In this document: positions 9,957 to 50,564 of the stretch, one piece after another | How positions within the stretch are numbered: position 1 is the stretch's first letter | How the letters are laid out: each line of letters begins with the position of its first letter | Assembly (NCBI RefSeq): GCF_014137975.1 | Contig: NZ_JACGWZ010000001.1 | Location: forward strand, 744,001 to 808,000 | Reading direction: 5' to 3' | DNA: 64,000 nucleotides | Source: Halosaccharopolyspora lacisalsi | Lineage (GTDB): Bacteria; Actinomycetota; Actinomycetes; Mycobacteriales; Pseudonocardiaceae | Position numbers and translations under genes: made by a program | The notes under the pieces: generated by a model | The model's database searches: none | The model's input: the letters and a program-made list of their open reading frames with translations, nothing else | What the model was told of the DNA's origin: nothing

Positions 9957-10108
9957 AGTGTGAGTTCGCGGTCGCCCGCGCGGCTTCAGCAGTCGGTGCT
10001 GTTCGCCGCGCGGCGCCGCACCGCGGAGATCGCCGTATCGCGTGACTCGCGTCGACGAGGCACAGTGGTGAGTGGACAGTACTTTTCGCGGTGACAAGGA
10101 GCTTCGTC

Positions 10109-10540
10109 ATGGCCGACCGCAACGCCACCACCTCCTGGAGCGGCGACCTCGCTTCGGGGACGGGAACGGTGACGCTGGATTCCTCCGACGCGGGCCGGTT
10201 CCCGGTCTCCTTCCCGGCCAGGACGGAGGAGCCCAACGGTCAGACCAGTCCGGAGGAGCTGATCGCGGCGGCGCACTCCTCCTGCTACAGCATGCAGCTG
10301 TCCGGGCTGCTCGGCGAGTCCGGACACACCCCGCAGCGGGTCGACACCAGTGCCGAGGTCACGCTGGGCAAGAGCGGTGACGGGCTCGCGATCACCGGTA
10401 TCGCGCTGACCGTGCGCGCCAGCGTGCCCGGCGCGGACAGCGCCACGTTCCAGGAGGCGGCGCGCAAGGCCAAGGAGATCTGCCCCGTCTCGGCGGCGCT
10501 GACCGGAACGACCATCACCCTGGACGCGGCCCTGGAGTGA
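10109..10540 (+). CDS. OsmC/Ohr family peroxiredoxin
   Basis: The 143-residue protein has the two OsmC-type Cys motifs, AAHSSCYSM and KEICPVSAAL, which form the peroxide-reducing pair in this family. The ATG at 10109 has AAGGAG 8 bases upstream, making it a better start than the GTG at 10091. The gene interrupts the usual ftsI-murE junction, has its own gap upstream (152 bp) and a strong hairpin downstream, so it is probably its own transcription unit. The likely role is detoxifying organic hydroperoxides; the substrate cannot be told from sequence. Confidence 0.9.
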   Translation: MADRNATTSWSGDLASGTGTVTLDSSDAGRFPVSFPARTEEPNGQTSPEELIAAAHSSCYSMQLSGLLGESGHTPQRVDTSAEVTLGKSGDGLAITGIALTVRASVPGADSATFQEAARKAKEICPVSAALTGTTITLDAALE

Positions 10541-10620
10541 ACGCGGTCCTCGGCCGTGGCAGGGGGTTCCGCACGGTTCGTTCTCCGAAGCGGCGTCAGC
10601 CGCTTCGCGCCCGCGCGCTC

Positions 10621-10650
10621 GATCGGCACCGCTCACGAGCGGTGCCGATC
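10621..10650 (+). terminator. terminator hairpin after osmC
   Basis: A perfect 12-bp stem (GATCGGCACCGC / GCGGTGCCGATC) with a TCACGA loop, followed by GCTCGTTCCT. It probably ends the osmC transcript and separates it from murE. Confidence 0.7.
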
Positions 10651-10922
10651 GCTCGTTCCTGCGGGGTGTGGGCGGTTTGGACGAGTCGGGTCCCGTCGCG
10701 GAGGCTGCGGCTGACGAGGGCGCTACGGCCGGGGGTCGGGATTTGACGGTGCCGACGAGTTGACCGTCGTCCTTGTCGGCGCTCATGCGGAGATCGCGGG
10801 TGGAGCCCGGTGGAGGCGTACCTCACAACACCGGCAGTGCTGTTCCGTCGATCATCTCCGATATGCGCACCAAAGTCGGGTAACGTTGTGTCGAAATCCG
10901 TGACGATGCGTGCTCGGGCCGG

Positions 10923-10968
10923 GATGAGTGCCTTCTCGCCGGGAAGATGAGTGCCTTCTCGCCGGGAA
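10923..10968 (+). repeat. perfect 23-bp tandem duplication
   Basis: Two abutting identical copies of a 23-bp unit that begins GATGAGTGCC and ends GCCGGGAA lie 70-115 bp upstream of murE. Confidence 0.95.
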
Positions 10969-11036
10969 ACTGCCCGGCATCCGCACCATCCGACCGTCGG
11001 CAGGAGGCGTAAGGCGGTACCGGTAACCTTCGCATC

Positions 11037-12674
11037 GTGCCTTCTGCGGTCGCGACGGCTCCGCCTCGCCCCTCCCACGTCGAGCCGGTGGACATCGAAT
11101 ACCTCGCCGGGGCCATCGGTGCCACGGTGCTTCGCACCACGGGACGAGACGCCCGGGAGCAACAGCCGGTACACGTGTCCGGGGCCACGCTCCGCGCTCA
11201 ACACGTGCGGGAGGGTGACCTGTTCGCCGCGCTGCCGGGGACCCGGGTGCACGGCGCCGACTTCGCCGCCGAGGCGCTGGACGCGGGCGCCACGGCGGTC
11301 CTGACCGATGCCGCCGGGACCGAGCGTGCCTCGCTGGCGGGACATCCGGCGATCCTCGACGGTTCGGTGCCGATGCTGGTGCACGACGATCCGCGCGGGG
11401 TGCTCGGCGAGGCGTCCTCCCACATCTACGGACACCCCTCGCGGCGGCTGACGATCCTCGGCGTCACCGGGACGTCGGGCAAGACCACCACGACCTACAT
11501 GCTGGACTCGGCGCTGCGGGCGGCCGGTTTCCGCACCGGGCTCGTGGGCACGGTCGAGACGCGCATCGCCGGGCAGCGCCTGGACAGCGCGTTCACCACG
11601 CCGGAGGCGCCGGATCTCCAGGCGCTGTTGGCCGTCATGGTCGAGCACGGTGTCGACCACGTGCCGATGGAGGTGTCCAGTCACGCGCTGGCGCTGGGTC
11701 GGGTCTCGGGCGTCCGCTTCGCGGTGGGGGCCTTCACCAACCTCTCCCAGGATCACCTGGACTTCCACCGCGACTTCGACGACTACTTCGCGGCGAAGGC
11801 GATGCTGTTCGACGGGCGCTCCGAGCGCGAGGTGGTCTGCGTCGACACGTCGTGGGGTGACCGGCTGGTCGGACCCGACACGGTCACCGTGTCCACGGTG
11901 GGCGAAGCGGCGTGGACGGTCTCCGACGTGGTGGCTTACGCCAGCGGCGAGCAGCGGTTCACCGCGGGTGGCCCGGACGGGGTCACCCTGGACATCCGGT
12001 TGCGTCTGCCCGGTCCGTTCAACGTCGCCAACGCGCTGCTGGCCGCCGGTTCCCTGTACGCGGCGGGCGTGGAGCCCGCGGCGATCGAGCGGGGCCTGGC
12101 GGATGTGGACGTTCCGGGGCGGATGGAGCGTGTCGCGCTGGGACAGGACTTCACGGCCGTGGTGGACTACTCGCACAAGCCCGGTGCGGTGGCGGCCGTG
12201 CTCGACGCGGCACGAGCTCAGGTGGCGGGAAGAGTGATCGTGGTCCTCGGTTGTGGAGGCGATCGGGACGTCGCCAAGCGCCCGCTGATGGGCGCCGAGG
12301 CGGCACGGCGCAGCGATCTGCTCGTCGTCACCGACGACAATCCCCGGAGCGAGGAACCGGCCGAGATCCGCGCGACCATGATCTCCGGGGCTCGCGAGGT
12401 GCCCGCCGAGCAACGCGGTGAGGTGATCGAGGTCGGCGACCGGCGGGAGGCCATCGCCGCGGCCGTGGCTCGGGCTCGTGACGGTGACGTGGTCGTCGTG
12501 GCGGGCAAGGGGCACGAGACGGGACAGGAAGTGGCGGGTGTCGTGCATCCCTTCTCGGATCGCGACGAACTCGCCACCGCGTTGCATCGACGACTGGAAG
12601 GTCCGCAGGGGACGGATATCGACCTGGGACGACCCTCGGCGATGGACCGGGGATTCGACGAGGAGGCAAGGTGA
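11037..12674 (+). CDS. murE: UDP-MurNAc-tripeptide synthetase MurE
   Basis: The 545-residue Mur ligase has the P-loop GVTGTSGKTTTTYML, the central-domain SSHALALGRV segment, and DDNPRSEEP near the C-terminus. The DNPR motif marks enzymes that add meso-diaminopimelate, and VVAGKGHETGQ is also present. It acts in the cytoplasm on UDP-MurNAc-L-Ala-D-Glu. The GTG start has no clear ribosome site; TAACCT lies about 10 bases upstream, so a leaderless transcript is possible. The gene starts the second segment of the cluster and overlaps murF by 4 bp. Confidence 0.96.
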   Translation: MPSAVATAPPRPSHVEPVDIEYLAGAIGATVLRTTGRDAREQQPVHVSGATLRAQHVREGDLFAALPGTRVHGADFAAEALDAGATAVLTDAAGTERASLAGHPAILDGSVPMLVHDDPRGVLGEASSHIYGHPSRRLTILGVTGTSGKTTTTYMLDSALRAAGFRTGLVGTVETRIAGQRLDSAFTTPEAPDLQALLAVMVEHGVDHVPMEVSSHALALGRVSGVRFAVGAFTNLSQDHLDFHRDFDDYFAAKAMLFDGRSEREVVCVDTSWGDRLVGPDTVTVSTVGEAAWTVSDVVAYASGEQRFTAGGPDGVTLDIRLRLPGPFNVANALLAAGSLYAAGVEPAAIERGLADVDVPGRMERVALGQDFTAVVDYSHKPGAVAAVLDAARAQVAGRVIVVLGCGGDRDVAKRPLMGAEAARRSDLLVVTDDNPRSEEPAEIRATMISGAREVPAEQRGEVIEVGDRREAIAAAVARARDGDVVVVAGKGHETGQEVAGVVHPFSDRDELATALHRRLEGPQGTDIDLGRPSAMDRGFDEEAR

Positions 12675-14155
12675 TCCGGCTCAGGCTGGACGAGATCGCT
12701 GCCGCTGTGGGCGGCAGACTGCACCGCGCGGACGGTTCCGAGACCGTCACGGCGGGCGTGGAGTTCGATTCCCGCGCGATCGCGCCCGGTGGCCTGTTCG
12801 TGGCCGTACCCGGAGAACGGGTGGACGGGCACGACTTCGCGGCCCGCGCGGTCGCCGACGGTGCCGCGGGGGTGCTGGCAGCGCGAGAGGTCGACGCGCC
12901 CGCGGTGATCGTTCCCCCGGTACCGGAGGAGGACCGCACCAGCGTGATGGCGCTGGCCGGGGACGTCGACGGGTCCGGTGCGGCGGTGCTGGCCGCGCTG
13001 GCGCACCTCGCCCGGCACGTGGTGGACCGCCTGCTGCGGTTGATCGTGGTCGGAGTGACCGGGTCGTCGGGCAAGACCTCCACCAAGGACCTGATCGCCC
13101 AGCTGCTCGAACCGCTGGGGCCGACGGTGGCGCCGCCGGGGTCGTTCAACAACGAGCTCGGCCACCCGTGGACGGTGCTGCGAGCCGACGAGGACACCCG
13201 GCACCTGGTGCTGGAGCTGTCCGCGCGGGGCGTCGGCCACATCGCCGGGCTGTGCGAGGTGGCGCCGCCCCGCATCGGTGCGGTGCTCAACGTCGGCACC
13301 GCCCACCTCGGCGAGTTCGGCTCCCAGAACGCCGTGGCCCGTGCCAAGGGTGAACTGGTCGAGGCGCTGCCCGCCGCTTCCGAGGGCGGAGTCGCCGTGC
13401 TCAACGCCGACGATCCGCTCGTGGCCGCGATGGCGGAGCGCACCGAAGCCCGCGTGGTGCTGGTCGGACAGAGTCCGGCCGCGCACGTGCGCGCCGCGGA
13501 CGTCGAGCTCGACGAGCGGGCACGCCCGAACTTCACCCTGATCACCCCGGAGTCCTCGGTACCGGTGACGCTGCCGCTGCACGGGGAGCACAACGTCGGC
13601 AACGCGCTGATCGCGGCCGCGATCGCTCTCGAGCTCGGCACGCCGACGTCCCGGATCGCCGAGCGGCTCGGCGGCGTGCGGCGCGTCTCCCAGCACCGCA
13701 TGGAGGTTTCCGAGACCGCGGACGGGGTCACCGTCGTCAACGACGCCTACAACGCCAACCCGGAGTCCATGCGGGAGGCGCTGAAGACCCTGGTCTCGAT
13801 GACCAGGGACAGGCCGGGCCGTGCCTGGGCGGTGCTCGGCGTGATGGGTGAGCTCGGCGACACCGGTGAGCAGGCCCACGACGAGATCGGTCGGCTGGCC
13901 GTGCGGCTCAACATCGACCGCCTGGTGGTGGTCGGTGAGCAGGCCCGCCGGATGCACCAGGCCGCCGAGCTGGAGGGTTCCTTCGACGGTGAGTCGGTCC
14001 TGGTCGACGACGCCGAGCAGGCCCTGGCGCTGTTGCGCTCGGAGCTGCGCCCCGGTGACGTGGTGTTGACCAAGGCATCGAACGTGGGGCAGCTGTGGCG
14101 GGTCGCCGAGGGCCTGGTTCCGGCCGATGAGCAGCGGGACGGTGGTACCGAGTGA
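12671..14155 (+). CDS. murF: UDP-MurNAc-pentapeptide synthetase MurF
   Basis: The 494-residue Mur ligase has the P-loop [13 protein letters not shown] and the substrate loop [12 protein letters not shown] typical of MurF, then [15 protein letters not shown] and a C-terminal domain ending after [14 protein letters not shown]. It adds D-Ala-D-Ala to the UDP-MurNAc tripeptide. The GTG start overlaps the murE stop (GTGA) with GAGGAGGCAAG as ribosome site, and the end overlaps mraY in the same way. Confidence 0.96.
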
Positions 14156-15228
14156 AGAGCATCCTCGTGGCCGCCGCGGTCTCGCTGGTGGTCTCCATCC
14201 TGTTCACGCCCTACCTGATCCGGGTCTTCTCCAAGCAGGGCTTCGGCCAGGAGATCCGCGAAGAGGTGCAGAAGTCGCACTCGGCCAAGCGCGGAACGCC
14301 CACGATGGGCGGGATGGCCATTCTCGTGGCCCTGTGGGCCGGATACCTGGTCACGCACCTGACGGTCTCCGAGGGGTGGCCGAGCGTGACCGCCCTGCTC
14401 GTGCTCGGGCTCACCACGGCCCTGGGCATCGTGGGCTTTCTGGACGACTTCATCAAGATTCGCAAGCAGCGCAACCTGGGATTGAACAAGACGGCCAAGC
14501 TGGTCGGGCAGATGGTGGCCTCCGTCCTGTTCGCGATCCTGGCGTTGCATTTCGCCGACCGCAACGGCATCACCCCGGCCTCCGACCACCTGTCGTTCAT
14601 CCGCGACATCACGGTGGTCTCCTTCGGCATCGTCGGCTTCGTGATCTTCGCCTACATCGCCATCAGCGGCTGGTCGAACGCGGTGAACTTCACCGACGGG
14701 ATGGACGGACTGGCCGCGGGCACGGCCGCGATGGTGCTGGCCAGCTACGTGCTGATCTCGTTCTGGCAGTTCCGCTACACCTGCGGAGCGGGGCAGCAGA
14801 TCGGTCCCACCTGCTACCAGGTGCGCGATCCGCTGGACATCGCGGTGGTCGCGGCGGCGGCGATGGCCGGCTGCGTGGGCTTCCTGTGGTGGAACGCCGC
14901 ACCGGCCAAGATCTTCATGGGCGACACCGGGTCGCTGGCGATCGGGGGACTGGTCGCCGGACTGTCCATGACCACCCGCACCGAGCTGCTGATGATCGTC
15001 ATCGGTGGCCTGTTCGTGGTGGAGGCGCTGTCGGTGGTGTTGCAGATCGGGGTGTTCCGCACCTCGCGGCGGCGGTTGTTCCGCATGGCGCCGTTCCATC
15101 ACCACTTCGAGCTGGCCGGATGGGCCGAGACCACGGTGATCATCAGGTTCTGGATCCTGGGCGGGATCAGTTGCCTGTTCGGGATCGGGTTGTTCTACGC
15201 CGACTGGTTGGCCGCGGGTGCTGTCTAG
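14152..15228 (+). CDS. mraY: phospho-MurNAc-pentapeptide translocase MraY
   Basis: The 358-residue polytopic protein has about ten membrane helices and the family motifs [27 protein letters not shown] and the His-rich [13 protein letters not shown]. It transfers phospho-MurNAc-pentapeptide to undecaprenyl phosphate to make lipid I. The GTG start overlaps the murF stop (GTGA). A 46-bp gap follows before the preferred murD start. Confidence 0.97.
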
Positions 15229-37828: not shown

Positions 37829-38500
37829 GTGATCCGGGTACTGCTGGCCGACGACGAGCCCCTGATCCGGGCCGGGGTGAACGGCATCCTCGCCGCCGAC
37901 TCCGGGATCGAGGTGGTCGCCGAGGCCGGGGACGGACGCGAGGCCGTCGAGCTGAGCCGCCACCACCGCCCGGACGTGGCGTTGCTGGACATCCGGATGC
38001 CGGTGTTGGACGGGCTCGCCGCGATCCCCGAGATCCGCCACGCCGTCTCCGGCACGGCCGTGGTCATCCTGACCACCTTCGGGGAGGACGAGTACATCGC
38101 GCGGGCGCTCGGGGAGGGAGTCGGGGGTTTCCTGCTCAAGACGGGGGACCCGCGTGAGCTCATCACCGGAGTGCACGCCGTGGCCGAGGGTGCGGCGTTC
38201 CTGTCGCCCCGGGTGGCCCAACGGGTGATCGCCCGGTTCGGCGACGGCCGCGCGTCCCGGAAGGCCGCGGCCGGGGAGCGGGTCACGACCCTGACCGACC
38301 GCGAGCGGGAGGTGCTGACCCTGGTCGGTTCCGGACTGTCCAACGCGGAGATCGCGGCCCGGCTGCACCTCGTCGAGGGCACGGTCAAGGCGTACGTCAG
38401 CACGATCCTCGACCGGCTCGACGCGCGGAACCGAGTGCAGGCCGCGATCACCGCGTACGAGGCGGGGCTTGAGGAACATCCGTGTCGGATCGTGCGCTAA
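37829..38500 (+). CDS. LuxR/NarL-family response regulator, C-terminus altered by transposon
   Basis: The 223-residue protein has a receiver domain (acidic pocket LLADDE, phospho-Asp in DVALLDIRMP, Lys in FLLKTGD) and a C-terminal HTH (LTDREREVLTLVGSGLSNAEIA, GTVKAYVSTIL). The GTG start has GAGGAGTGAGG upstream. A Tn3-family transposon starts inside the gene at 38464. The original end, recoverable beyond the transposon at 50538-50564, would read AYEAGLVGSD. Now it reads AYEAGLEEHPCRIVR, with the last nine residues encoded by the transposon end. The HTH is intact, so it may still work. Confidence 0.93.
   Translation: MIRVLLADDEPLIRAGVNGILAADSGIEVVAEAGDGREAVELSRHHRPDVALLDIRMPVLDGLAAIPEIRHAVSGTAVVILTTFGEDEYIARALGEGVGGFLLKTGDPRELITGVHAVAEGAAFLSPRVAQRVIARFGDGRASRKAAAGERVTTLTDREREVLTLVGSGLSNAEIAARLHLVEGTVKAYVSTILDRLDARNRVQAAITAYEAGLEEHPCRIVR
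38459..38463 (+). repeat. target-site duplication GAGGC, left
   Basis: GAGGC directly precedes the outer transposon and is repeated at 50538-50542. A 5-bp duplication is the Tn3-family hallmark. Confidence 0.95.
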
Positions 38501-38502
38501 GC
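38464..38502 (+). repeat. outer transposon left terminal inverted repeat
   Basis: These 39 bp match the reverse complement of 50499-50537 exactly. They also supply the new 3' end of the response-regulator gene, including its TAA stop. Confidence 0.97.
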
Positions 38503-38591
38503 GTTATCCCAGTTCGTTGCCGCGTTGACCTGCGGCGAAGCGGTACTGGAACCTTCCGAGGTCGTTGTAAACGATCTTTGGAAGGGCAGTT

Positions 38592-39619
38592 GTGGCAGTC
38601 GAGTTTCTGTCGGATGAGCAGGCGGCTGAGTACGGGGCGTTTCCCGCGACGCTGTCTCGGGGCGAGCTGGAGCGGTACTTCTTCCTGGATGACGCGGATC
38701 GGGAGCTGGTGCGGGACAAGCGGCGGCCGCACAACCGGCTTGGGTTCGCGGTCCAGTTGGCCAGCGTTCGCTACCTCGGGCGGTTCATGCCGGATCCGCA
38801 GCAAGTCCCTACGGAGGTGGCCGAGTACCTGGCCGAGCAGTTGGAGATCTTCGACCCGTCGTGCCTGAAGGACTACGGCGAGCGGGACGGCACCGCGCGC
38901 ACCCACGCTGGTGAGATCCAGAAGGCCGAGGGCTGGCGGGACTTTTCCGAGGTCACCAGCGAGCTGAGTGAGTGGCTCGACGCCCGCGCCTGGACCACTG
39001 GCGACGGGCCGAAAGCACTGTTCGACGCCGCGGTGGGCTGGCTGCGCGAGCGAAAGGTGCTGCTGCCCGGGGCGACCAGGCTGGCGCGGCTGGTCGGTTC
39101 GTGCCGGGAAGCGGCGACGCAGCGGTTGTGGGAGACGCTGCACGATCTGCTCGACGATGACCAGCGCGCCGCGCTCGACGGCCTGCTGGAGGTGCCGGAA
39201 GGGCACCGGCATTCCCGGCTGGACCGGATTCGGCGCCCGCCGACGCGGGTGTCGGGCCCGGCGATGGTCGACGCGCTCCAGCGGGCCGCGGAGATCCTGG
39301 GGTTGGGGTTCGCCGAGGTCGACACCGAAGTCGTGCCACCTCGTCGGCTCGCGGAGCTGTCCCGGTACGGGGTGCAGGGCAAGGCCGCCCTGCTGCGCCG
39401 CCACGGCGACTCTCGGCGTGCGGCGACGCTGCTGGCCACGGTGGTCTACCTGCAAACGCGGGCGGTCGACGATGCCCTGGACCTGCTGGATGTGCTGATC
39501 TCGTCCAAGCTGCTGGCCCGGGCGGAGCGGGCGTCGGCTAAGGAGAAGCTGCGCACGCTGCCCCGGCTCGGTAAGGCGTCGGCGAAGCTGGCCGCCGCGT
39601 TCGGCGTGCTGCTGGAGAT
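38592..39619 (+). pseudogene. tnpA: outer transposase TnpA, 5' fragment
   Basis: Residues 1-342 of a Tn3-family transposase: an N-terminal DUF4158-type DNA-binding region (FLSDEQAAEYGAFPATLSRGE, RRPHNRLGFAVQLASVRYLG) and part of the middle region. The GTG start has GGAAGGG upstream. At 39620 the inner transposon interrupts the gene, and the frame runs 15 codons into the inner inverted repeat before a stop at 39665. Joining position 39619 to 44796 restores the frame as VLLEITGTHDDLAS. An imperfect inverted repeat (CCTTCC...GGAAGG, 38552-38585) lies in the leader. Confidence 0.93.
39615..39619 (+). repeat. target-site duplication GAGAT, left
   Basis: GAGAT directly precedes the inner transposon and is repeated at 44791-44795. 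Confidence 0.95.
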
Positions 39620-39661
39620 GGCCCAGTTCTCCCGAAGCTCCCGCGAGCCGCAAAGTAGCGG
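39620..39661 (+). repeat. inner transposon left terminal inverted repeat
   Basis: Exact reverse complement of 44749-44790. Similarity continues for a few bases after a single mismatch at 39662. Confidence 0.97.
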
Positions 39662-39716
39662 GTGATCGGTCGTGATCGCTCGATCGTGTTACTGGTGGTC
39701 GCGTTAGCGTCCGCCC

Positions 39717-42644
39717 ATGCGTCAGAACTGGACATCGGACGAGCTGGTCGATTTATGGACGCTGGTCGGTGAGGACTGGCGGTGGCTGGGAAACAAGACC
39801 GGCGTGACGCGGCTTGGGTTCGCGGTGCTATTGAAGTTCTTCGAGATTGAGGCCCGATTTCCCGCGTATCCGGAGGAAGTGCCGTCGGCAGCGGTGGACT
39901 ATGTGGCCTCGCAGGTGCGGGTGGAGGCCACCGAGTTCGCCAAGTACTCGCTATCGGGGCGCACAGCGGAGTATCACCGCAGCCAGATCCGGGAGGCGAT
40001 GGGCTTCCGCCCGGCGACCGAGGCTGATGAGCAGCGGTGGACCGGCTGGCTGGCCGAGGAGCTGGCTGGGGTGGAGCTGGATCGCCAGCGGCTGGCGGCG
40101 GCGGTGTTGACCCGGTGCCGCCAGGAGAAGGTGGAGCCACCGACGTCGGGCCGGGTGGATCGCGTTGTGGCCAGCGCGCTGCGGCAATTCGAGACCGCGT
40201 TCTGCACGCGGACGGTACAGCGGCTGGGACCTGCCGCTGATCGGCTGGAGGCCCTGGTGGCCGAGGCCGAGGGGCAGCGGGGCGGGCTGTTGGCGGAGTT
40301 GAAGGCCGATCCGGGGCAGGCCAGTCTGGACACGCTGCTGCGGGAGATCGACAAGCTCGCCGCGGTGCGGGCGCTGGGACTTCCCGCAGGATTGTTCGAG
40401 GATGCGTCCGAGAAGCTGGTGGCCGCGTGGCGGGCCAGGGCGGCGCGGTCGTGGCCGTCGGATCTGCGCGCCGCCTCGGGCGAGGTGCGGCTAACGCTGC
40501 TGGCGGCGTTGTGCTGGGTCCGGCAAACCGAGATCACCGACGCGCTGGTGGAACTGCTGATCAGCCTGGTGCACAAGGTTAACGCACGTGCCGAGCGGCG
40601 GGTAGAACGCGAACTGACCGAGGATCTGCGGCGCGTGCGGGGCAAGGAAGGCATTCTGTTCCGGCTGGCCGAGGCCGCCGTGGAGCACCCGGATGAGCTG
40701 GTGCGGTCGGCGGTGTATCCCGTGGTCGGCGAGAAAACGCTGCGGGAGCTGGTCAAAGAAGCCAAAGCCAACGAACGCGCCTTCCAAGCCAGGGTGCGCA
40801 CCGTGCTGCGCAGCTCGTATTCGAACCACTACCGGCGGATGCTGCCGGCACTGCTGGCCGCACTGGAGTTCCGCTGCAACAACACCGCCTACCGGCCGAT
40901 CATGCAGGCCCTGGACCTGCTCGGACGCTACGCCGAGGTCGACGGCAAGACCCGCTTCTACGACGCGGGCGCGACGGTGCCCTTCGACGGGGTGGTGCCG
41001 AAAGCCTGGCGGGAGGCGGTCGTCGACGAGAAGGGCCGCGTCGAGCGCATCCCGTATGAGCTGTGCGTGCTGGTGTCCCTGCGCGATGCGTTGCGCCGCC
41101 GCGAGGTGTATGTGGCCGGGGCCAGCAAGTGGCGCAATCCCGAGGACGACCTGCCCGCGGATTTCGAGTCCAGCCGGGACGTGCACTACGCCGAGCTGTG
41201 CCAGCCGCTGGATCCCAGCGAGTTCATCACGGACCTGCGCAGCCGCATGAGCGCGGCCTTGGAACGGTGCGATGCCGCCCTGGCCGACGGCACCGCGGGC
41301 GGGGTACGGGTCGGCCAGCGCCGGGGCGAGCCGTGGATCACCGTGCCCAAAGCGGATCCGCTGCCCGAATCGCAGGCCCTCGGCGCACTCAAGGACGAGG
41401 TCATCCGCCGCTGGGGCACGCTAGATCTGCTCGACGTGCTCAAGGACGCCGACTTCCTCACCGAGTTCACCGCCGAGTTCTCCTCGGTGGCCTCCCGCGA
41501 GGCGCTGGACCGGCCGACGCTGCGCCGGCGGATGCTGCTGTGCCTGTTCGCGTTGGGCACCAACATCGGGATCCGCCAGCTTGTCGACACCGGCGAGCAC
41601 GGGGAAACCGAGGCCGCGCTACGGCACGTGCGCCGGCACTTCATCACCCGCGACAACCTGCGGGCCGCGATCGGAAAGCTGGCCAACGCGACCTTCGACG
41701 TGCGCGATCCGCAGTGGTGGGGCCAGGGCACGGCGTGCGCGTCGGACTCGAAGAAGTTCGGCTCGTGGGAGTCGAACCTGATGACCGAGTTCCACCAGCG
41801 CTACGGCGGACCCGGTGTGATGATCTACTGGCACGTCGAGCGCAAGAGCACCTGCATCTATTCCCAGCTCAAGTCCTGTTCGTCGTCCGAGGTCGCGGCG
41901 ATGATCGAGGGGCTGCTGCGGCACTGCACCGACGCCGAGATCGAGGCCAACTACGTCGACACGCACGGCGCGAGCGTGGTCGGGTTCGCCTTCACCGAAC
42001 TGCTCGGGTTCCGGCTGCTGCCGAGGTTGAAGAACATCGGCTCGATCCGCCTGTACCGGTCGGACGACGAGGCCGCCTACGCGCATCTCGGACCCGTGTG
42101 CACCCGGCCGATCAAGTGGGATCTCATCGCCCAGCAGTACGACCAAATGGTCAAATACGCCACCGCGCTCCGACTCGGGACGGCCGAGTCGGAGTCGATC
42201 CTGCGCCGGTTCACCCGCGGCGGCCCGAAACACCCCACCTACCAAGCCCTGGAGGAACTCGGCCGGGCGGTGCGCACGATCTTTGCCTGCGACTACCTCG
42301 CCTCCCCCGAGCTGCGCCGCGAGATTCACGGTGGCTTGCAGGTAGTGGAGCAGTGGAACTCCGGCAACACCGTGCTGTTCTACGGCAAAGACGGCGATCT
42401 GACCGGCCCCGACCGCGAGCACAGCGAGGTGTCCATGCTCGCGCTGCACCTGCTTCAGTCGGCGCTGGTGCACGTCAACACCCTGCTGCTGCAGCAGGTC
42501 CTGGACGAACCGGCGTGGGCAGGCACCCTGGGCGATGCCGACCGGCGTGGCCTGACGCCGCTGTTCTGGTCCAACATCAACCCTTACGGGCGCTTCCGCC
42601 TGGACATGAGCAAGCGCCTCGACCTACCGACCCCGTCTCGTTGA
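39717..42644 (+). CDS. tnpA: Tn3-family transposase TnpA (inner element)
   Basis: The 975-residue protein is full length for the family. The RNase-H-like core has the first Asp in [13 protein letters not shown], the second in [14 protein letters not shown] and the Glu in [18 protein letters not shown]; the C-terminus is [16 protein letters not shown]. It cuts and joins the element ends in replicative transposition. The start ATG has no ribosome site but a TTAGCGT box lies 7 bases upstream, so a leaderless transcript is possible. No stop, frameshift or missing motif is visible, so the enzyme looks active. Confidence 0.95.
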
Positions 42645-42651
42645 CGGATCC

Positions 42652-43479
42652 TCATAGGAAGTCGAGGATCTCACTGCGGACGCGTGCTGGTTGGTCTTCC
42701 ATGAGGAAGTGGCCGCCGTTGTCGATCACGGCCAGCTCCGAGCCCGGGATGTCTGCGGCGAGTCGTTTGGCGTAGGTGAGTGGTTGCCAGGCGTCTTGGG
42801 CTCCCCACAGCAGACGCACCGGCATGGTCAATTGCGCCAGCGCGGGCACGACCTGCTGTGTGGGGCTGGAGTCGTATTTCCGGACTTGGTGCTCGAAGAA
42901 CGAGGCCCGGCCCAGAGCGGACCGGTGCGGAGCGAGGTAGGCATCCAGCACCGCGCCACTCATGCGATCCGGGTTCGCCACGGTCATCTGCAGTTGCCTG
43001 GTCAGCATCGCTTCGAAGTCACTCGCCGGCATGGCGGCGTAGTCCTGGAGGTGATCGCGGATGATCGCCTGCCAGGTCTCCGAGGGCCAGGAGTCGTAGC
43101 TGACTGTGTCGATCAGCATCAGCCGGCGCACGCGCCGGGGTTGAGCCGTGGCCAGCAGCTGCGCGATGGCACCGCCGATGTCGTGGGCGACCAGGCAGAA
43201 CTGGTCGATGCCCAGGTGCTGCAGGAGCGCCTGAAGAACTTCGACTTGCCCGCGCACCGAGGTGTCATGGGTCAGTGGCCGTTCCGATCGGCCGTATCCC
43301 AGCAGGTCGAACAGCACGACTCGATAGCCGGCTCGCTCGACCTCGGGAACAACGTCACGCCAGATGAACGAGTGCGACGGGGTGCCGTGCAGGAACACCA
43401 CCGGCTCACCGCTGCCTCGATCGCGGTAGGCCAGACGTACGCCATTGACGATGACCTCACTGTCCAAGAGCTCGGGCAC
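42652..43479 (-). CDS. alpha/beta hydrolase (haloalkane dehalogenase-like)
   Basis: The 275-residue protein has the oxyanion region VVFLHGTPSHSFIWRDV, an Asp nucleophile in LVAHDIGGAIAQ and the catalytic His in DNGGHFLMED. An Asp rather than Ser nucleophile places it near dehalogenases and epoxide hydrolases. The GTG at 43479 is chosen because GAGAGGAG lies 5 bases upstream; a TTG at 43494 would overlap that site. It is divergent from tetR across a shared operator and lies 8 bp from the transposase stop, so it is cargo of the inner transposon. The substrate is unknown. Confidence 0.85.
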   Translation of the reverse strand: MPELLDSEVIVNGVRLAYRDRGSGEPVVFLHGTPSHSFIWRDVVPEVERAGYRVVLFDLLGYGRSERPLTHDTSVRGQVEVLQALLQHLGIDQFCLVAHDIGGAIAQLLATAQPRRVRRLMLIDTVSYDSWPSETWQAIIRDHLQDYAAMPASDFEAMLTRQLQMTVANPDRMSGAVLDAYLAPHRSALGRASFFEHQVRKYDSSPTQQVVPALAQLTMPVRLLWGAQDAWQPLTYAKRLAADIPGSELAVIDNGGHFLMEDQPARVRSEILDFL

Positions 43480-43495
43480 AGCTACTCCTCTCAAA

Positions 43496-43532
43496 GGTAT
43501 AACGGTCGTTCTACTAGAACGGTCGTTATACT
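43496..43532. promoter_or_regulatory. TetR operator and divergent promoters
   Basis: Two copies of the near-palindromic decamer AACGGTCGTT (43501-43510 and 43518-43527), centres 17 bp apart, lie inside a larger imperfect inverted repeat running from 43498 to 43530. A -10 box for tetR (TATACT, 43527-43532) and one for the hydrolase (TATACC on the minus strand, 43501-43496) sit at the two edges. Binding should repress both genes. Confidence 0.8.
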
Positions 43533-43538
43533 ACGGAG

Positions 43539-44123
43539 ATGACGCTCGACCAGCAACCTTTGCCATCGGCCCGTGACCGCCTGCTCACCGCCGCCGGCGA
43601 GCTCTTCTACGTCCGCGGCATCAATGCCACCGGCATCGACGCGGTCGTGGAACGAGCCGGTGTAGCCCTAGCCACGCTCTATAAGCAGTTCGGCGGCAAA
43701 GACCGGCTCGTGGCCGCCTACCTCGAAGAGCGGGACCATCGCTGGCGAGCGGACTGGGAGGCCGCCATCGCCACCACCACCGACCCGCGGCAGCGGGTTG
43801 TGGCGATCTTTGATGCCCTGGAGCGATGGTGGGGCACTGAGGGCTGCTACCGCGGCTGCGCGCAGGTCGACGCTGCTGTCGAGATCACTGACGCCGAACA
43901 CCCCGCGATTGCCGCGATCACCCGACACAAGACACACCTGCGCCAACGCCTGACCGAACTCACCCGCGAGGCCGGCGCAGCCGAGCCCGAACAGACCGCG
44001 GCGGACATCGTGGTGATCTACGAGGGCACGATCACAGCATTGCTGCTCCAGCTCGTGCCCGAGCCCCTGCAGCGAGCACGTCGCCTGACCACCGAACTGC
44101 TCCCGACCGACAACAGAAGATGA
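43539..44123 (+). CDS. TetR family transcriptional regulator
   Basis: The 194-residue protein has a TetR-type N-terminal HTH ([43 protein letters not shown]) and a helical ligand-binding domain containing [14 protein letters not shown]. The ATG lies 7 bases after the TATACT box, so the message is probably leaderless. It faces the hydrolase gene across a typical TetR operator, and is expected to repress both itself and the hydrolase until a ligand binds. The ligand is unknown. Confidence 0.92.
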
Positions 44124-44722
44124 ACCGGCCGTCGATCGGCCGTCTCGTACCTGATGGAAACCTGCAGTACGTACGGAAACGAAGGTTCGCGAGACACCGC
44201 GAACCCGGCAGCGTTTCCGCAGGTCGGCTCTGTCACGCAACCCGTGTCCGCGCCACCGTCACGCTGGCCCGACGGCCCGAGCTGGACAAGGCGCTGCTGG
44301 CAGCCAACCGGGCCGGGGACCAGCTCGTCGTGACCAAGCTCGACCGGCTCGGCCGCTCCTTGGAACACCTCATCGAACTGTCCAAGCAGCTTCAGACCAA
44401 GCAGGTCGACCTCGTGGTGCTGGACCAGGGCATCGACACGTCCACCGCTGTCGGCCGCATGTTCTTCCAAATCATCGGCGCCATCGCCGAGTTCGAACAC
44501 GCCCTGATGTCCGAACGCACCATCGACGGACTCGCAGCCGCACGTGCCCGCGGACGGACCGGAGGGCAGAAACCCAAACTCGGGCCACGCCAAGTGAAAT
44601 TGGCCCGCGAGATGTACGACGAAACCGGTGACGACGGCAAACGCCGCTACACCGTCGCTCAAATCGCCGCCGAGTTCGGCGTCACCCGCCCCACCATCTA
44701 CCGCCACCTCAGCGCTGGCTGA
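44120..44722 (+). pseudogene. tnpR: serine resolvase TnpR lacking catalytic N-terminus
   Basis: From about 44270 the frame matches serine resolvases: [45 protein letters not shown] and a C-terminal HTH ([21 protein letters not shown]). The first 45-50 residues, including the nucleophilic Ser of the YARVS motif, are absent. About 50 unrelated residues join the fragment to the tetR stop. The junction suggests that the hydrolase/tetR cargo arrived by a rearrangement that removed the gene's 5' end. The product cannot be a working resolvase. Confidence 0.85.
44174..44219 (+). terminator. two-part hairpin after tetR
   Basis: An inner perfect stem (GGTTCGCG / CGCGAACC, 44184-44205) is enclosed by CGGAAAC / GTTTCCG (44174-44180 and 44213-44219). 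It probably ends the tetR transcript, and it lies in the non-homologous part of the tnpR relic. Confidence 0.5.
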
Positions 44723-44748
44723 CAGCCCATCAGCACATCAGCGATCAT

Positions 44749-44790
44749 CCGCTACTTTGCGGCTCGCGGGAGCTTCGGGAGAACTGGGCC
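44749..44790 (-). repeat. inner transposon right terminal inverted repeat
   Basis: Exact reverse complement of 39620-39661, followed directly by the GAGAT duplication. Confidence 0.97.
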
Positions 44791-44795
44791 GAGAT
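44791..44795 (+). repeat. target-site duplication GAGAT, right
   Basis: Second copy of the 5-bp duplication made by the inner transposon. Confidence 0.95.
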
Positions 44796-46329
44796 CACCG
44801 GCACCCATGACGACCTCGCCTCCCAGGCCGCCGAGGACGGCGATCGAGTCGAGCCGGTGAGCCTGGGGCAGGTGTGGGCCGAGATCGAGGCCGTGGTGCC
44901 CCGATCGGAGCTGGCCGAGGCGCTGACCGCGGTGGTCGAGCTGGCCGGCCCGCCGGATTCCGACGCTGACGAGGCGTGGCGGGCGGAACTGGTCAAGCGG
45001 TTCGCCACGGTGCGGCCGTTCCTGCCGTTGTTGTGCGAGGTGATCCGCTTCGACGCCGCACCCGACGGGCAGCGGGTGCTGGCTGCGTTGCGGGATCTGC
45101 CGAGGTTGTGGGGCGGCGGCCGCAACAAGGTCGCCCGCTCGGAGATCGACGAGCAGTTGCTCATCGGCTCCTGGCGGCACCTGGTGCTGCACGCCCCGGA
45201 GCTGGAGCCCGGCACAGTGGACTGGCGGGCCTACACCTTCTGCGTGCTGGAGCAGTTCCACCGGTGCCTGCGTCGTCGGGACATCTTCGCGGTCAACTCC
45301 AGCAAGTGGGGTGACCCGCGCGCGAAGCTGCTGGCCGGCAGCGCGTGGATCACGGCCAAGCCGGTGGTGTTGTCCAGCCTCGGCCTGCCACCCGACCCTG
45401 CCCAGCACCTCGATGAGCGCGCCGAGGCGCTGGATGCGACCTTCCGCGAGGTCACTGCCGGGCTGCCGGACAACACGGCGGTCCGCTTCGACGAGCAGGG
45501 GCGCCTGCACCTGGCGGCGCTCCCGGCGGAGGCGGAGCCGCCGAGCCTGGAGAACCTGCGGGTGCTGACCAGCCGGATGCTGCCCCGCGTTGATCTGCCC
45601 GAGGTGCTGCTGGAGGTGTTCTCCTGGACCGGCGCCGCGGAGGCGTTCACCTCGATCACCGGCGGCGAAGCCCGCCTGGCGGACCTGCCGGATCAGAAGC
45701 TTTGGCGCGTCGACACCAAGGCGGACTACGGCCCGTTCAGCACAGCGGCCCGCGGCCGGATTGACCTGGACCGGGTGCGGCGGCACTGGGAGGACATCCT
45801 GCGCGTGGTCGCTTCCATCCACACTGGTGCGGTCCGGGCACACGATGTGATCCGGATGCTTTCCCGCGATGGGCACCCCACCCCGCTCGGCGAGGCCATC
45901 GCGCACTACGGGCGGATCGAGAAGACCCTGCATGTGCAGCGGATGGTCGACGACACCGGCTACCGCCGCGACATCAAGGCCCAGGCCAACCTGCAGGAAG
46001 GCCGCCACGCGCTGGCGCGGCGGATCTTCCACGGCCAGCGCGGCGAACTGCGGCAGCGCTACTACGAAGGCATGGAAGACCAACTCGGCGCCCTGGGCCT
46101 GGTGCTCAACGCGATCGTGCTGTTCAACACCCGCTACCGCGATGCCGCGATCGCCGAACTGCGAGCCGGGGGCTACGAGGTGCGTGACGAAGACGCGGCA
46201 CGGCTCTCGCCCTTCGTGCGCGGCCACATCAACATGCTCGGCCGCTATTCCTTCCTGGCCCCGGACCTGGCCGGCGCGCTGCACCCGCTGCGCGACCCAT
46301 CCGAACCCGACGAGGAAGAGATCAACTGA
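44796..46329 (+). pseudogene. tnpA: outer transposase TnpA, 3' fragment with core deletion
   Basis: This is the rest of the split outer transposase (about 511 residues); an internal ATG at 44857 could start a 490-residue product. It contains the middle domain and the C-terminal part with HTGAVRAHDVIRML, MEDQLGALGLVLNAIVLFNTRY (with the catalytic Glu) and HINMLGRYSF. Near residue 265 of the 490-residue product, FSWTGAAEAFTSI runs straight into LADLPDQKLWRVD. Relatives have about 130 residues between these, including both catalytic Asp motifs. The deletion is in frame, and the rebuilt protein would be 853 residues instead of about 985. Confidence 0.9.
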
Positions 46330-46332
46330 TCA

Positions 46333-46373
46333 CGGGCGGGCGCCCTCGACGATTTCCAGGAGGCGCCCGCCCG
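46333..46373. terminator. bidirectional terminator between tnpA and cargo
   Basis: A perfect 12-bp stem (CGGGCGGGCGCC / GGCGCCCGCCCG) with a 17-base loop lies 4 bp past the tnpA stop. It faces the end of the convergent cargo operon. Confidence 0.7.
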
Positions 46374-46445
46374 GTTGGGCCTTTCGGTCGCTGGTCCTGC
46401 GGGACTGCCGGTGGAAGGTCAATTCCAGCGTCTTCGCGGGGCTGG

Positions 46446-47336
46446 TCAGGAGGCGTTGAGTGCGGGCACGAATTCGGTCTTGATGAATGTCTCCAGCGAT
46501 GTCGGGGTGGTTGTTTCCGGGGTTCGTGGCTGGGCCATGCGCAGGTGACCGGTATTCACGGCGTGCGGGACTTCCGTCATCATCGCGGCGACGTTGTCCG
46601 ACACACCGGCTTCGCGCAGCTGCTCGTGGAAAGCCTCCACGGTGCAGCGTTCGTAGGCCACGGGTGCGTCGATTGCTGTTGCGATCGCCTGTGTGACCTC
46701 GTTCATGGTCACGTCTCTTTCGCCTTGCAGTTCCCGGATTAGTGTCCCGGTCTGCGGCCGTGTCAGTTCCTCGGCCGCGGCGGTGCCGACGTCGGTCGTG
46801 GTGATCAGCGGTAGTGGCACGTCGGGGTCGAACGGCGCGATGATCCGACGGTGGGTGCGCACGGAGTCGAGGTGGTCGAGGAGGTTTTCCATGTAGTAGC
46901 CCGCGCGCAGCCACGTGATGTCCGTTCCGGGAACGGTCGAGAGACGGTTCTCGAAGCGGTGCAGGCCTGCAACGGGGCCGGTACCGCTGGCGTGTTGCGC
47001 TCCCCAGCTGCTCAGCGCTACGACACGGGGCACCCCGGATTGGGTGACAGCGTCGGTGAGCGCGGCTGCCGCCTGGTCTTGGAAGGCGGCGAAGTCGGGG
47101 TGATCGGGGATGTAGTTGGGTTGGATGACCAGGTAGGCGGCATCCGCTCCGCGGAGAGCGGTGGTCATCGTGGTGGGGTCGGATTGGTCGGCCTGATGGA
47201 TCTGGGCTCCGTGGTCGGCGAGGTGCGCGAGGTTGCGCGGGTCGCGGCCGACTGCTCGCACGTGGTGGCCGTGTTCCAGCAGGTGCGATGCCACGGCGCG
47301 GCCGGTGCGGCCGCTGGCTCCGGTGATGACGTACAT
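46446..47336 (-). CDS. NmrA-like NAD(P)-binding protein
   Basis: The 296-residue atypical short-chain dehydrogenase starts MYVITGASGRTGRAVASHLL, the GxxGxxG Rossmann motif. LVIQPNYIPDHPDF and WLRAGYYMENLLDHL follow, typical of NmrA/azoreductase-like proteins that bind NAD(P) and sense redox state or reduce quinones. The catalytic Tyr-Lys pair of classical dehydrogenases is not evident. The ATG has AGGAAGA upstream. Last gene of a three-gene operon with the reductase and the MmyB regulator. Confidence 0.88.
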   Translation of the reverse strand: MYVITGASGRTGRAVASHLLEHGHHVRAVGRDPRNLAHLADHGAQIHQADQSDPTTMTTALRGADAAYLVIQPNYIPDHPDFAAFQDQAAAALTDAVTQSGVPRVVALSSWGAQHASGTGPVAGLHRFENRLSTVPGTDITWLRAGYYMENLLDHLDSVRTHRRIIAPFDPDVPLPLITTTDVGTAAAEELTRPQTGTLIRELQGERDVTMNEVTQAIATAIDAPVAYERCTVEAFHEQLREAGVSDNVAAMMTEVPHAVNTGHLRMAQPRTPETTTPTSLETFIKTEFVPALNAS

Positions 47337-47349
47337 GCTTCTTCCTGTG

Positions 47350-48321
47350 TCAGTAGCGGTTTCCGGCTACGGGTGCGGCGATTGCAGAGATCTCGGCGAG
47401 ATCGTCCGGGGAGAGACTGATTCCGGTGGCTGCGAGGTTGTCTTCCAGGTAGGTACGCCGTTTGGTTCCGGGTAGAGCGACGACGTCATCGCCCTGGTGG
47501 GCAATCCAGGCGAGTGCAAGCTGCGCAGGACTTGCCCCGTGACGTGCGGCAAGCTCGGTGAGTTGCTGCACGATCCGTTGGTTGTGCGCGAAGTTCTGCT
47601 CGGAGAAGCGGGCGAAGCCGCGGCGCAGATCCTGTGGTGGTAACGAGTCCTGCGAGTTGATCGTGCCGGTCAGAAGGCTGCGGCCGAGTGGTGCGTAGGC
47701 GACGACGCCGATGCCGAGTCGGCGGCACGTCGGCACGACCTCGTCCTCGATGTCCCGAGACCACAGCGACCATTCGGTCTGCACCGCCGCGATGGGGTGT
47801 ACTCGGTAGGCTCGCGTGATTTCCTCGGCGCTGGCTTCCGACAGTCCGAGGTGACGGACCTTTCCCGCCGCCACGAGCTCGGCCATCGCACCGACGGTCT
47901 CCTCGATCGGCACGTGCGGGTCCACGCGGTGCAGGTAGTACAGGTCCACATACTCGACGTTGAGTCGTTGCAGCGAGCGGTCGATGGCCTGGTGCACGTA
48001 GGCCGGATCGGCTCGGACGGTGGCGTCGGTGTAGTCGGCGTCGCGCACGATGCCGAACTTGGTGGCCAGAACCGCTCGGTCCCGGCGATCGGCAAGTGCT
48101 CGCCCGACCAGGCCTTCGTTGGCCCCGCCGCGCCCGTACATGTCCGAGGTGTCGAAGAGCGTCACGCCCTCATCCAGAGCGCGGTGGATCGTCGCGATCG
48201 ACTCCACCTCGTTGTCGGCCGTGCCGTAGAAATCGCTCATCCCCATACAGCCCAGGCCCTGTTCCGATACCTCCAGCGACCCCAGGTGCCGTGTTCCCAG
48301 GGCGGTTCGGGGAGGCGTCAT
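47350..48321 (-). CDS. aldo-keto reductase
   Basis: The 323-residue protein has the aldo-keto reductase tetrad: Asp and Tyr in LFDTSDMYGRGG, Lys in AVLATKFGIV and His in LYYLHRVDPH. The C-terminal cofactor segment is VALPGTKRRTYLEDNLAA. It is an NADPH-dependent reductase of carbonyl compounds; the substrate is unknown. The ATG overlaps the stop of the MmyB-type gene, and the NmrA gene starts 13 bp after its end. Confidence 0.92.
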   Translation of the reverse strand: MTPPRTALGTRHLGSLEVSEQGLGCMGMSDFYGTADNEVESIATIHRALDEGVTLFDTSDMYGRGGANEGLVGRALADRRDRAVLATKFGIVRDADYTDATVRADPAYVHQAIDRSLQRLNVEYVDLYYLHRVDPHVPIEETVGAMAELVAAGKVRHLGLSEASAEEITRAYRVHPIAAVQTEWSLWSRDIEDEVVPTCRRLGIGVVAYAPLGRSLLTGTINSQDSLPPQDLRRGFARFSEQNFAHNQRIVQQLTELAARHGASPAQLALAWIAHQGDDVVALPGTKRRTYLEDNLAATGISLSPDDLAEISAIAAPVAGNRY

Positions 48322-49190
48322 GATGTGCTCTCCTCTCGGGTGGTGAACGTGGAAGCCGACAACGTGGCAAGCGACCTGAGACGCACCAGCGCTTCTTCGG
48401 TGGCGTCGTCGGTGGGGTGGTAGGCCCAGACCTGGTGACCGTCGGTGTCGGGGAGTTCCAGCACGTGCTGGTTGAACACCAGCGCGCCAACCAGCGGGTG
48501 CTGGAACCGCTTGCGGTCGACGGCTTTCTCGTACACCTCGTGCTGCGCCCAGGCGGTGCTGAACACTTCGCTGGCCACGGCGAGCTCACCCACCAGCCGC
48601 TCCAACCGGCCCGAACCCGCCTCGGAACCGGCGCTGGCACGCAACGCCGCCACCATGCAGTGGGCCAGCTCGGACCAATCGACGAAGAACTCCTGCGCCC
48701 CCGGCGACAGAAACACCATCCGGGCGTAGTTCTCCCGATGCTCCAACCCCTCGTGAAGCATCTCGCCCAACGCATTGGCGGCCACGATGTTGAGCCAGCG
48801 GTCCACCAGGATCGCGGGGACGGTCAACGAGCCAAGCAACGGCCGGACCGCATCCAGCCGCCCGAGCGCGAGGACGCCGCCTACCTCGGCGTCGTCGTCG
48901 GCCGTGGCGAGCTCACGCAGATACCGCAACGAGGCACGGTCCAGCAGCAAAGCCGCCGACAGCCCGTCGGTCACCATGCGTGAAGGATGCCGCTCCCGGC
49001 CCTGCTCCAGCCGCACGTAGTAGTCCGTGCTGATCCCCGCCAGCATCGCGACCTCATCGCGCCGCAGCCCCGCCACCTGCCGAGACCCGCCCGGCACGAG
49101 GCCCTGCTGCTCCGGGCGCACCTGCTGACGCCGCGCCCGCAGAAACGCGCCCAGCGGGCTGTCCAGCGCCTTCGCCTCCCATGAGTCCAT
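48318..49190 (-). CDS. MmyB-type XRE transcriptional regulator
   Basis: The 290-residue protein has an N-terminal HTH (LRRDEVAMLAGISTDYYVRLEQGRE) and a C-terminal ligand-binding domain of the MmyB type with PAILVDRWLNIVAANALGEML. Such regulators usually control an adjacent oxidoreductase and bind a fatty-acid-like or other hydrophobic ligand. It is the first gene of the operon with the reductase and NmrA genes, overlapping the former by 4 bp. The likely promoter lies in 49191-49354. Confidence 0.92.
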   Translation of the reverse strand: MDSWEAKALDSPLGAFLRARRQQVRPEQQGLVPGGSRQVAGLRRDEVAMLAGISTDYYVRLEQGRERHPSRMVTDGLSAALLLDRASLRYLRELATADDDAEVGGVLALGRLDAVRPLLGSLTVPAILVDRWLNIVAANALGEMLHEGLEHRENYARMVFLSPGAQEFFVDWSELAHCMVAALRASAGSEAGSGRLERLVGELAVASEVFSTAWAQHEVYEKAVDRKRFQHPLVGALVFNQHVLELPDTDGHQVWAYHPTDDATEEALVRLRSLATLSASTFTTREESTS

Positions 49191-49354
49191 AAACCCACCG
49201 TAGAGAGCTCACCCGGATCCCGGGGTAGGAGCACAACACCCACCCCATCAACCCCGACAACCAGACAGATCGTCCACTCGGCCAGGTCCGGAGCGAATAC
49301 TCGGGGTGAAGAACAGGTGGGCCGAAGTGAACGCCACTGCAGCTCATCGATGCG

Positions 49355-50329
49355 TCAACGGCGGCTGTCGCCCGGGGCCAGCAGGCTGGTGACCTCCGCC
49401 AGGGCCTGGTCGGAGGGTTTGAAGTAGCGGCGGACGTTCTCCGGCTTCTTGTGCCGGGACTTCGCCATCAACAGCAGCAAGGACGCGCCAGCCTCGCCGA
49501 GGTGGGTCAGCGCTGAGTGGCGGAACTCGTGTGGATCCCACCCGGTGCCCGAGCCTCGGAGCGCGGTATGGGCGTCGAGCAGGCCACGAGCTTGGCCGTA
49601 GGACAACCGGGCCAGCCCGGTGTCCGGGCACACGTCACGGGCCCCGAGAACCTTGCCGGGACCGGCGCGGCGGTGGGTGAGGAACACCGGGCCGCGGGTG
49701 CGGCCCTTGAGCAGCCGGGGCAGCAGGCGGGCGGTGCCGGCGTCCCAGTAGACGGTCTCCAGCACGACGTCCTCGCGCGTCTGGCCGCGGCGGCGGATCT
49801 TCGCCCGCGCTCCCTTGGCCTTCACCGGGGCGCGGCGCCCGGCGAGGTCCAGGTCCTCGATGTTGAGGCCGAGGACCTCGTCGGCGCGGGCGGCGGTTTC
49901 GTAGAGCATCCGGTAAAGCGTCTTCTCCCGGATCGCGACCTCGCGGCGCGCCACCAGTCGGTCGATCGCCAGCCGGGAGCGCACCCGGGTCTCCGAGTCC
50001 GGGGTCGCCAGGCGCTTGGCCCACCCCGGCACTGCCGGGGCCTGGCCGCGTTCCCGGCACCACGACAGCCACGACCCCACGGCGGCCCGGCGGGCGTTCC
50101 AGGTGCCCACCGCCGCCCGGCCCCACAGCGCCTCCAGGGTCTCGCCGACCTCGTCGTCGGCCACGGACGCCAGCGGCCGCCGATCGCCGAGCTGGTCGGC
50201 GGTCTTGCCCACCGCGGTGCTGTAGCCGCGGATCGTGTTCGGGTTGCCCAGCGAGTCGAGGAACAGCTCGGCCGACCGGCCGACGGTCAGCGTCGTGGTG
50301 TCGGTCGGCAGCGCGACGACGGTGGGCAC
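49355..50329 (-). CDS. tyrosine recombinase (TnpI-like)
   Basis: The protein has an N-terminal SAM-like domain and a catalytic domain with Arg in [13 protein letters not shown], the HxxR box in [13 protein letters not shown], His in [12 protein letters not shown] and the nucleophile Tyr in RRYFKPS. I chose the GTG at 50329 (324 residues), which has AGGGAGA 6 bases upstream; a GTG at 50368 would run over a repeat of the candidate recombination site. It lies just inside the right end of the outer transposon, where TnpI-type recombinases that resolve cointegrates are often found. Confidence 0.88.
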
Positions 50330-50345
50330 CCGCGTTCTCCCTTGC

Positions 50346-50437
50346 CGCAGATAACAGGGCCGCTTCACGCGCCGCCGCGGGGACGTTCCCGCAGGACGTG
50401 ATCAGCGATGGCACGGATAATAGAGCGTTATCTGTGG
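50346..50437. promoter_or_regulatory. candidate recombination (resolution) site of outer transposon
   Basis: An inverted repeat CACGGATAA (50412-50420) / TTATCTGTG (50428-50436) around a 7-bp spacer TAGAGCG resembles a tyrosine-recombinase core site. A third similar arm, CGCAGATAA, lies at 50346-50354. The site lies between the recombinase gene and the right inverted repeat. The repeats are seen; the role is inferred. Confidence 0.55.
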
Positions 50438-50498
50438 CAAGACTTCAGACGCCACCGCGGCCTGAAGCCCCGTCAGCCGCCTACCAGGACCGACGAGG

Positions 50499-50537
50499 GC
50501 TTAGCGCACGATCCGACACGGATGTTCCTCAAGCCCC
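50499..50537 (-). repeat. outer transposon right terminal inverted repeat
   Basis: Exact 39-bp inverted copy of 38464-38502. Confidence 0.97.
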
Positions 50538-50564
50538 GAGGCGGGCCTGGTGGGTTCCGACTAG
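50538..50564 (+). pseudogene. displaced 3' end of response-regulator gene
   Basis: The GAGGC duplication at 50538-50542 and the next 22 bases encode EAGLVGSD and a TAG stop. This is the original last part of the response regulator now ending at 38500. Rejoined, the gene would encode 218 residues. Confidence 0.9.

Follow-up and report, generated by a model that had tools for sequence, protein, structure and literature searches.

Two nested Tn3-family transposons with apparent decay in both elements in the chromosome of Halosaccharopolyspora lacisalsi

Background

In the chromosome of the actinobacterium Halosaccharopolyspora lacisalsi one Tn3-family transposon disrupts the transposase gene tnpA of another. 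This nested pair raises the question in which order the two elements arrived, whether they are of the same kind, and which of their functions have survived. We analyzed a stretch of 64,000 nucleotides (the window), to which coordinates refer unless another locus is named. A preliminary description of the sequence had reported a second Tn3-family element inside the transposase of the first, and its coordinates, the repeats, the GAGAT duplication, and the split of tnpA were all confirmed.

Results

The inner element comprises 5171 bp (39620-44790). End comparison placed its left inverted repeat at 39620-39661 on the plus strand and its right inverted repeat at 44749-44790 on the minus strand. 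As described before, these repeats are perfect over 42 bp (42/42 bases identical), and 48 of 49 bases agree when they are extended to 49 bp (on the left to 39668, with one mismatch). The target duplication GAGAT is present at both flanks (39615-39619 and 44791-44795). This agrees with the terminal inverted repeats of about 38 bp and the 5-bp duplication expected of a Tn3-family element. The inner tnpA gene (39717-42644, plus strand) is of full length as judged from Pfam and from alignment to the TnpA of Tn4430, and encodes 975 amino acids. Its product covers PF01526 completely (positions 1-389 of 389), scores 815 bits with NF033527 (cut-off 500), and carries all three DDE residues in the alignment to Tn4430 TnpA, as expected of a large full-length transposase with a DDE_Tnp_Tn3 domain. 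Profile matches identified as cargo a haloalkane-dehalogenase-like alpha/beta hydrolase scoring below the family cut-offs (42652-43494, minus strand) and a TetR-family regulator encoded divergently to it (43539-44123, plus strand). Between these two genes (43494-43539) ACGGTCGTT words are repeated, a likely operator for the TetR regulator.

The outer element extends from 38464 to 50537, one base inward of the repeat as it first appeared. Its left inverted repeat begins GGGGCTTGAGGAACATCC (38464-38502, plus strand) and recurs at the right end (50499-50537, minus strand) with 38 of 38 bp identical. Flank comparison revealed the duplication GAGGC (38459-38463 and 50538-50542), which the preliminary description had not given. 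The insertion hit the final codons of a response-regulator gene (37829-38463, plus strand; 3' remainder 50543-50564), and joining the flanks recovers the C-terminus AYEAGLVGSD followed by the stop codon. According to profile matches the cargo, encoded on the minus strand, consists of an NmrA-like NAD(P)-binding protein (46446-47336), an aldo/keto reductase (47350-48321), and a helix-turn-helix regulator with an MmyB-like ligand domain (48318-49190).

At the right end of the outer element a tyrosine recombinase (PF00589) is encoded on the strand opposite to tnpA (49355-50368, minus strand). Its R, H-x-x-R, H, and Y motifs are present and it would be expected to act as the cointegrate resolvase. 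A 31-bp palindrome (50409-50439), a candidate resolution site, ends 98 bp from the right end; its core is conserved in all six aligned relatives. This arrangement corresponds to that in the revised description of Tn4556, and we classify the outer element as Tn4556-like, a membership assigned by layout. That the recombinase is a chance neighbor was ruled out, as it lies inside the repeats while the cargo differs among relatives. Nine outer-type copies with variable cargo were found within exact 5-bp duplications, namely the copy in the window, four in genomes of the same family, and four on Streptomyces plasmids. A relative of the recombinase is present in 167 plasmid records.

Excision of the inner element together with one GAGAT joins the two tnpA pieces in frame, as had been claimed, and restores an open reading frame of 853 residues spanning VLLEITGTHDD. 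The insertion point follows residue 343, approximately, of the outer TnpA. A failure of the alignment at this junction had been named as the observation that would speak against the rejoining. Instead, the outer-type TnpA proteins of seven genomes, found in a search of 249 genomes of the same family, are continuous through the insertion point, where the multiple alignment is free of gaps; they are 83-91% identical, and residues 1-640 of the query aligned as a single piece. By the matches of TnpA to PF01526, NF033527, and Tn4430 TnpA both elements are Tn3-family transposons. Since the inner element lies within the outer tnpA and uninterrupted relatives exist, the outer element arrived first and the inner one second. 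This order, also proposed in the preliminary description, is secure. Inheritance of the inner element as cargo of the outer one might be considered in view of at least one outer-type element (L062) that has an inner-type element inside. Here, however, tnpA is split by an element with its own GAGAT, and the seven close relatives are empty at that point; this reading was ruled out and retains next to no probability. A hotspot for the inner type in outer-type tnpA genes was also rejected: just one of the 35 duplication-flanked inner-type insertions, namely this copy, interrupts such a gene.

Between the inner TnpA and an outer-type TnpA that is intact, identity amounts to 23% over their length. 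The ends match at 10 of 40 positions, which is the level of chance and bears out the earlier statement that they are unrelated. Judged by these sequences, the two are different kinds of Tn3-family element. Target immunity depends on a transposase acting with its own ends. The nesting of unlike elements is consistent with such immunity, and a single pair of this kind is expected anyway without cross-immunity.

The 853-residue protein is continuous at the junction, as had been assumed, but it does not represent a whole transposase. The 5' piece of the outer tnpA (38592-39619, plus strand) encodes the DUF4158 end-binding region and now reads open to 39665, with its stop within the inner repeat. 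From the 3' piece (44796-46329, plus strand; both pieces were assigned by profile match and relatives) 174 residues (522 bp) that are present in every close relative are missing at one place. In the relatives the 522 bp are bordered by copies of CTGGC(C/G)GACCTGC, and the window retains a single copy of this 13-bp direct repeat, CTGGCGGACCTGC (45676-45688, plus strand), as the scar of an in-frame deletion. The outer pieces lack PF01526 positions 1-196, the region of D679 and D751, which are named as catalytic residues of the Tn4430 TnpA (PMC9579193); of the catalytic residues only the third, aligned to E881, is retained. An intact relative has the complete DDE domain (865 bits). As two DDE aspartates are missing, the rejoined TnpA would be inactive even without the inner insertion. 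Hence, the outer element is a decayed copy of a Tn3-family member, presumably dead twice over by the split and the deletion of its tnpA. The deletion had escaped the first reading of the sequence.

Among the single-base changes inferred for this branch of the outer tnpA silent ones prevail: 59 are silent and 17 are not, compared with 50 and 8, respectively, for the nearest relative. The gene was therefore constrained during most of the time since its split from that relative, a scale on which both breaks look recent. The branch changes in the outer tnpA gave no dating of deletions against insertion. A different view of the double break would be domestication rather than decay, in which the left remnant, an open frame of 357 amino acids and mainly DUF4158, continues to be produced and to bind outer-type ends, and acts as a repressor of, or confers immunity to, related Tn4556-like elements; we give this idea a very slim chance.

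The inner element has suffered a comparable loss. Its serine resolvase gene is a remnant (44120-44722, plus strand; Pfam and relatives) whose catalytic domain matches Pfam only from position 47 onward, so that PF00239 positions 1-46 including the catalytic serine are deleted. Intact resolvase relatives in other genomes have 144 additional bp, in which the gene starts and the YGRVST motif is encoded. At the deletion junction the 7-bp sequence CACGCTG is found (44260-44266, plus strand), and a relic of this gene at another place in the genome has it on both sides. This suggests that the 144 bp were lost between 7-bp repeats. Because a serine recombinase was matched in 30 of the other 34 inner-type elements flanked by duplications, the inner element was filed as a decayed member of its group. 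It has an intact transposase and no usable resolvase of its own. This deletion was likewise absent from the preliminary description.

Both deletions fall between short direct repeats, which could point to artefacts of assembly or sequencing in elements that are intact but for their nesting. The repeats of just 13 and 7 bp are, however, far below read length or usual assembly overlaps. In the assembly sequence both junctions are clean and in frame, the reading frames are open, and the window contains no N. We therefore consider an artefact quite improbable.

The inner-type group is common in Nocardia, Pseudonocardia, Streptomyces, and relatives. Its members have tnpA at one end together with exchangeable cargo and exchangeable resolvases; the ends mostly start with GGCCC in actinobacterial relatives and with GGGG in two from Firmicutes. 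Including the present one, 35 duplication-flanked copies were counted. The closest relative is located in the metagenome-assembled genome Pseudonocardiaceae Dino_bin31 (WHTH01000041.1, L023), with matching ends and 91% DNA identity in the left repeat and tnpA. It differs in its cargo and in having another, full-length resolvase. Comparison of the flanks of this relative revealed no matching 5-bp duplication.

Among the 35 insertions the duplication ATCTG occurs at three unrelated sites (L028, L062, and L134), which possibly reflects a target preference of the inner type. At two loci the distance between the end of an inner-type element and that of an outer-type element is only 84 and 281 bp (L028 15258-15342 and L038 13530-13811, respectively). 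In Streptomyces sp. OfavH-34-F (L062 309-18300) an inner-type element with an ATCTG duplication (7873-15128) lies within outer-type ends and represents an independent case. There the outer-type tnpA is also broken, and the outer ends are without a matching duplication.

The genome of H. lacisalsi contains further Tn3 remains. A second inner-type element (L139 10899-16673, corresponding to C2:524899-530673) lies in a palindrome and is flanked by TAGCA. The match of its tnpA is spread over two frames near residues 331-333, so that a frameshift is probable. A cluster of remains at C1:1243000-1302000 (L140, L142, and L151) comprises several outer-type ends, an outer-related TnpA with an open frame of 1030 amino acids, and fragments of resolvases and recombinases.

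Discussion

Two successive replicative insertions of the Tn3 type, together with decay, very probably account for the locus. A Tn4556-like element would have inserted into the last codons of the response-regulator gene, duplicating GAGGC, and a GGCCC-ended actinobacterial Tn3-family element would then have entered its tnpA, duplicating GAGAT. Deletions between short direct repeats would have removed 522 bp from the outer tnpA and 144 bp from the gene of the inner resolvase. These two insertions and two deletions can be read in the sequence itself; as to the activity of the proteins, we infer that the outer element can no longer move by itself and that the inner one can still be mobilized by the TnpA it encodes. 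To resolve cointegrates of the inner element, either the RecA of the host or a resolvase supplied in trans would be required.

The nest might also have formed elsewhere, for instance on a plasmid, and have been brought to this site in one piece through an outer-type transposase acting in trans. The perfect, GAGGC-flanked outer ends would allow this, the two types occur together in genomes and at times, as in L062, within a single element, and the genome encodes another outer-related TnpA in an open frame (48% identical). Such a move, however, demands mobilization in trans once the outer tnpA was already split, and no second composite copy was found in this genome. We regard it as unlikely and favor two successive insertions at the present site.

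Comparison with known systems

Nested Tn3 elements are already known, and the present pair is a well-resolved new example with added decay. It shows cleanly how Tn3 elements build up and become defunct in actinobacteria, with insertions signed by duplications and losses by short-repeat deletions. In TnARS1 within TnMARS1 of Bacillus sp. MB24 one class II (Tn3-type) element is likewise nested in another and brings repeats and a 5-bp duplication of its own (PMC6920998); in contrast to that pair, the inner element here splits tnpA. In one plasmid collection multiple Tn3-like copies per replicon were different members, with one exception (PMC5142620).

Through the outer element the locus is tied to a Tn4556-like group of actinobacteria whose tyrosine recombinase is encoded far from tnpA, at the other end. 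This layout has already been published for Tn4556 itself. Tn4556 of Streptomyces fradiae and the outer element share tnpA at the left end followed by cargo, a PF00589 recombinase on the opposite strand at the right end (324 and 337 amino acids, respectively), 38-bp repeats with 5-bp duplications, and a palindrome of 31 bp that stops 98 bp short of the right end (PMC6403206). They differ in cargo, which in Tn4556 comprises a methyltransferase and an isoprenyl transferase (PMC6403206) instead of the NmrA-like protein, reductase, and regulator, and the outer tnpA is split and deleted, unlike that of Tn4556. A survey of 190 Tn3-family members listed just three with TnpI (PMC7157771), compared with the nine duplication-flanked copies of this group and the 167 plasmid records with a recombinase relative reported here. 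The TnpA of Tn4430, for which structures are available (7qd4-7qd8), is homologous over nearly the full length to the inner TnpA and to the intact outer relative. Tn4430 and the outer element both pair tnpA with a tyrosine recombinase. In Tn4430, however, tnpI and tnpA are colinear, whereas in the outer element the recombinase and tnpA lie at opposite ends and point toward each other.
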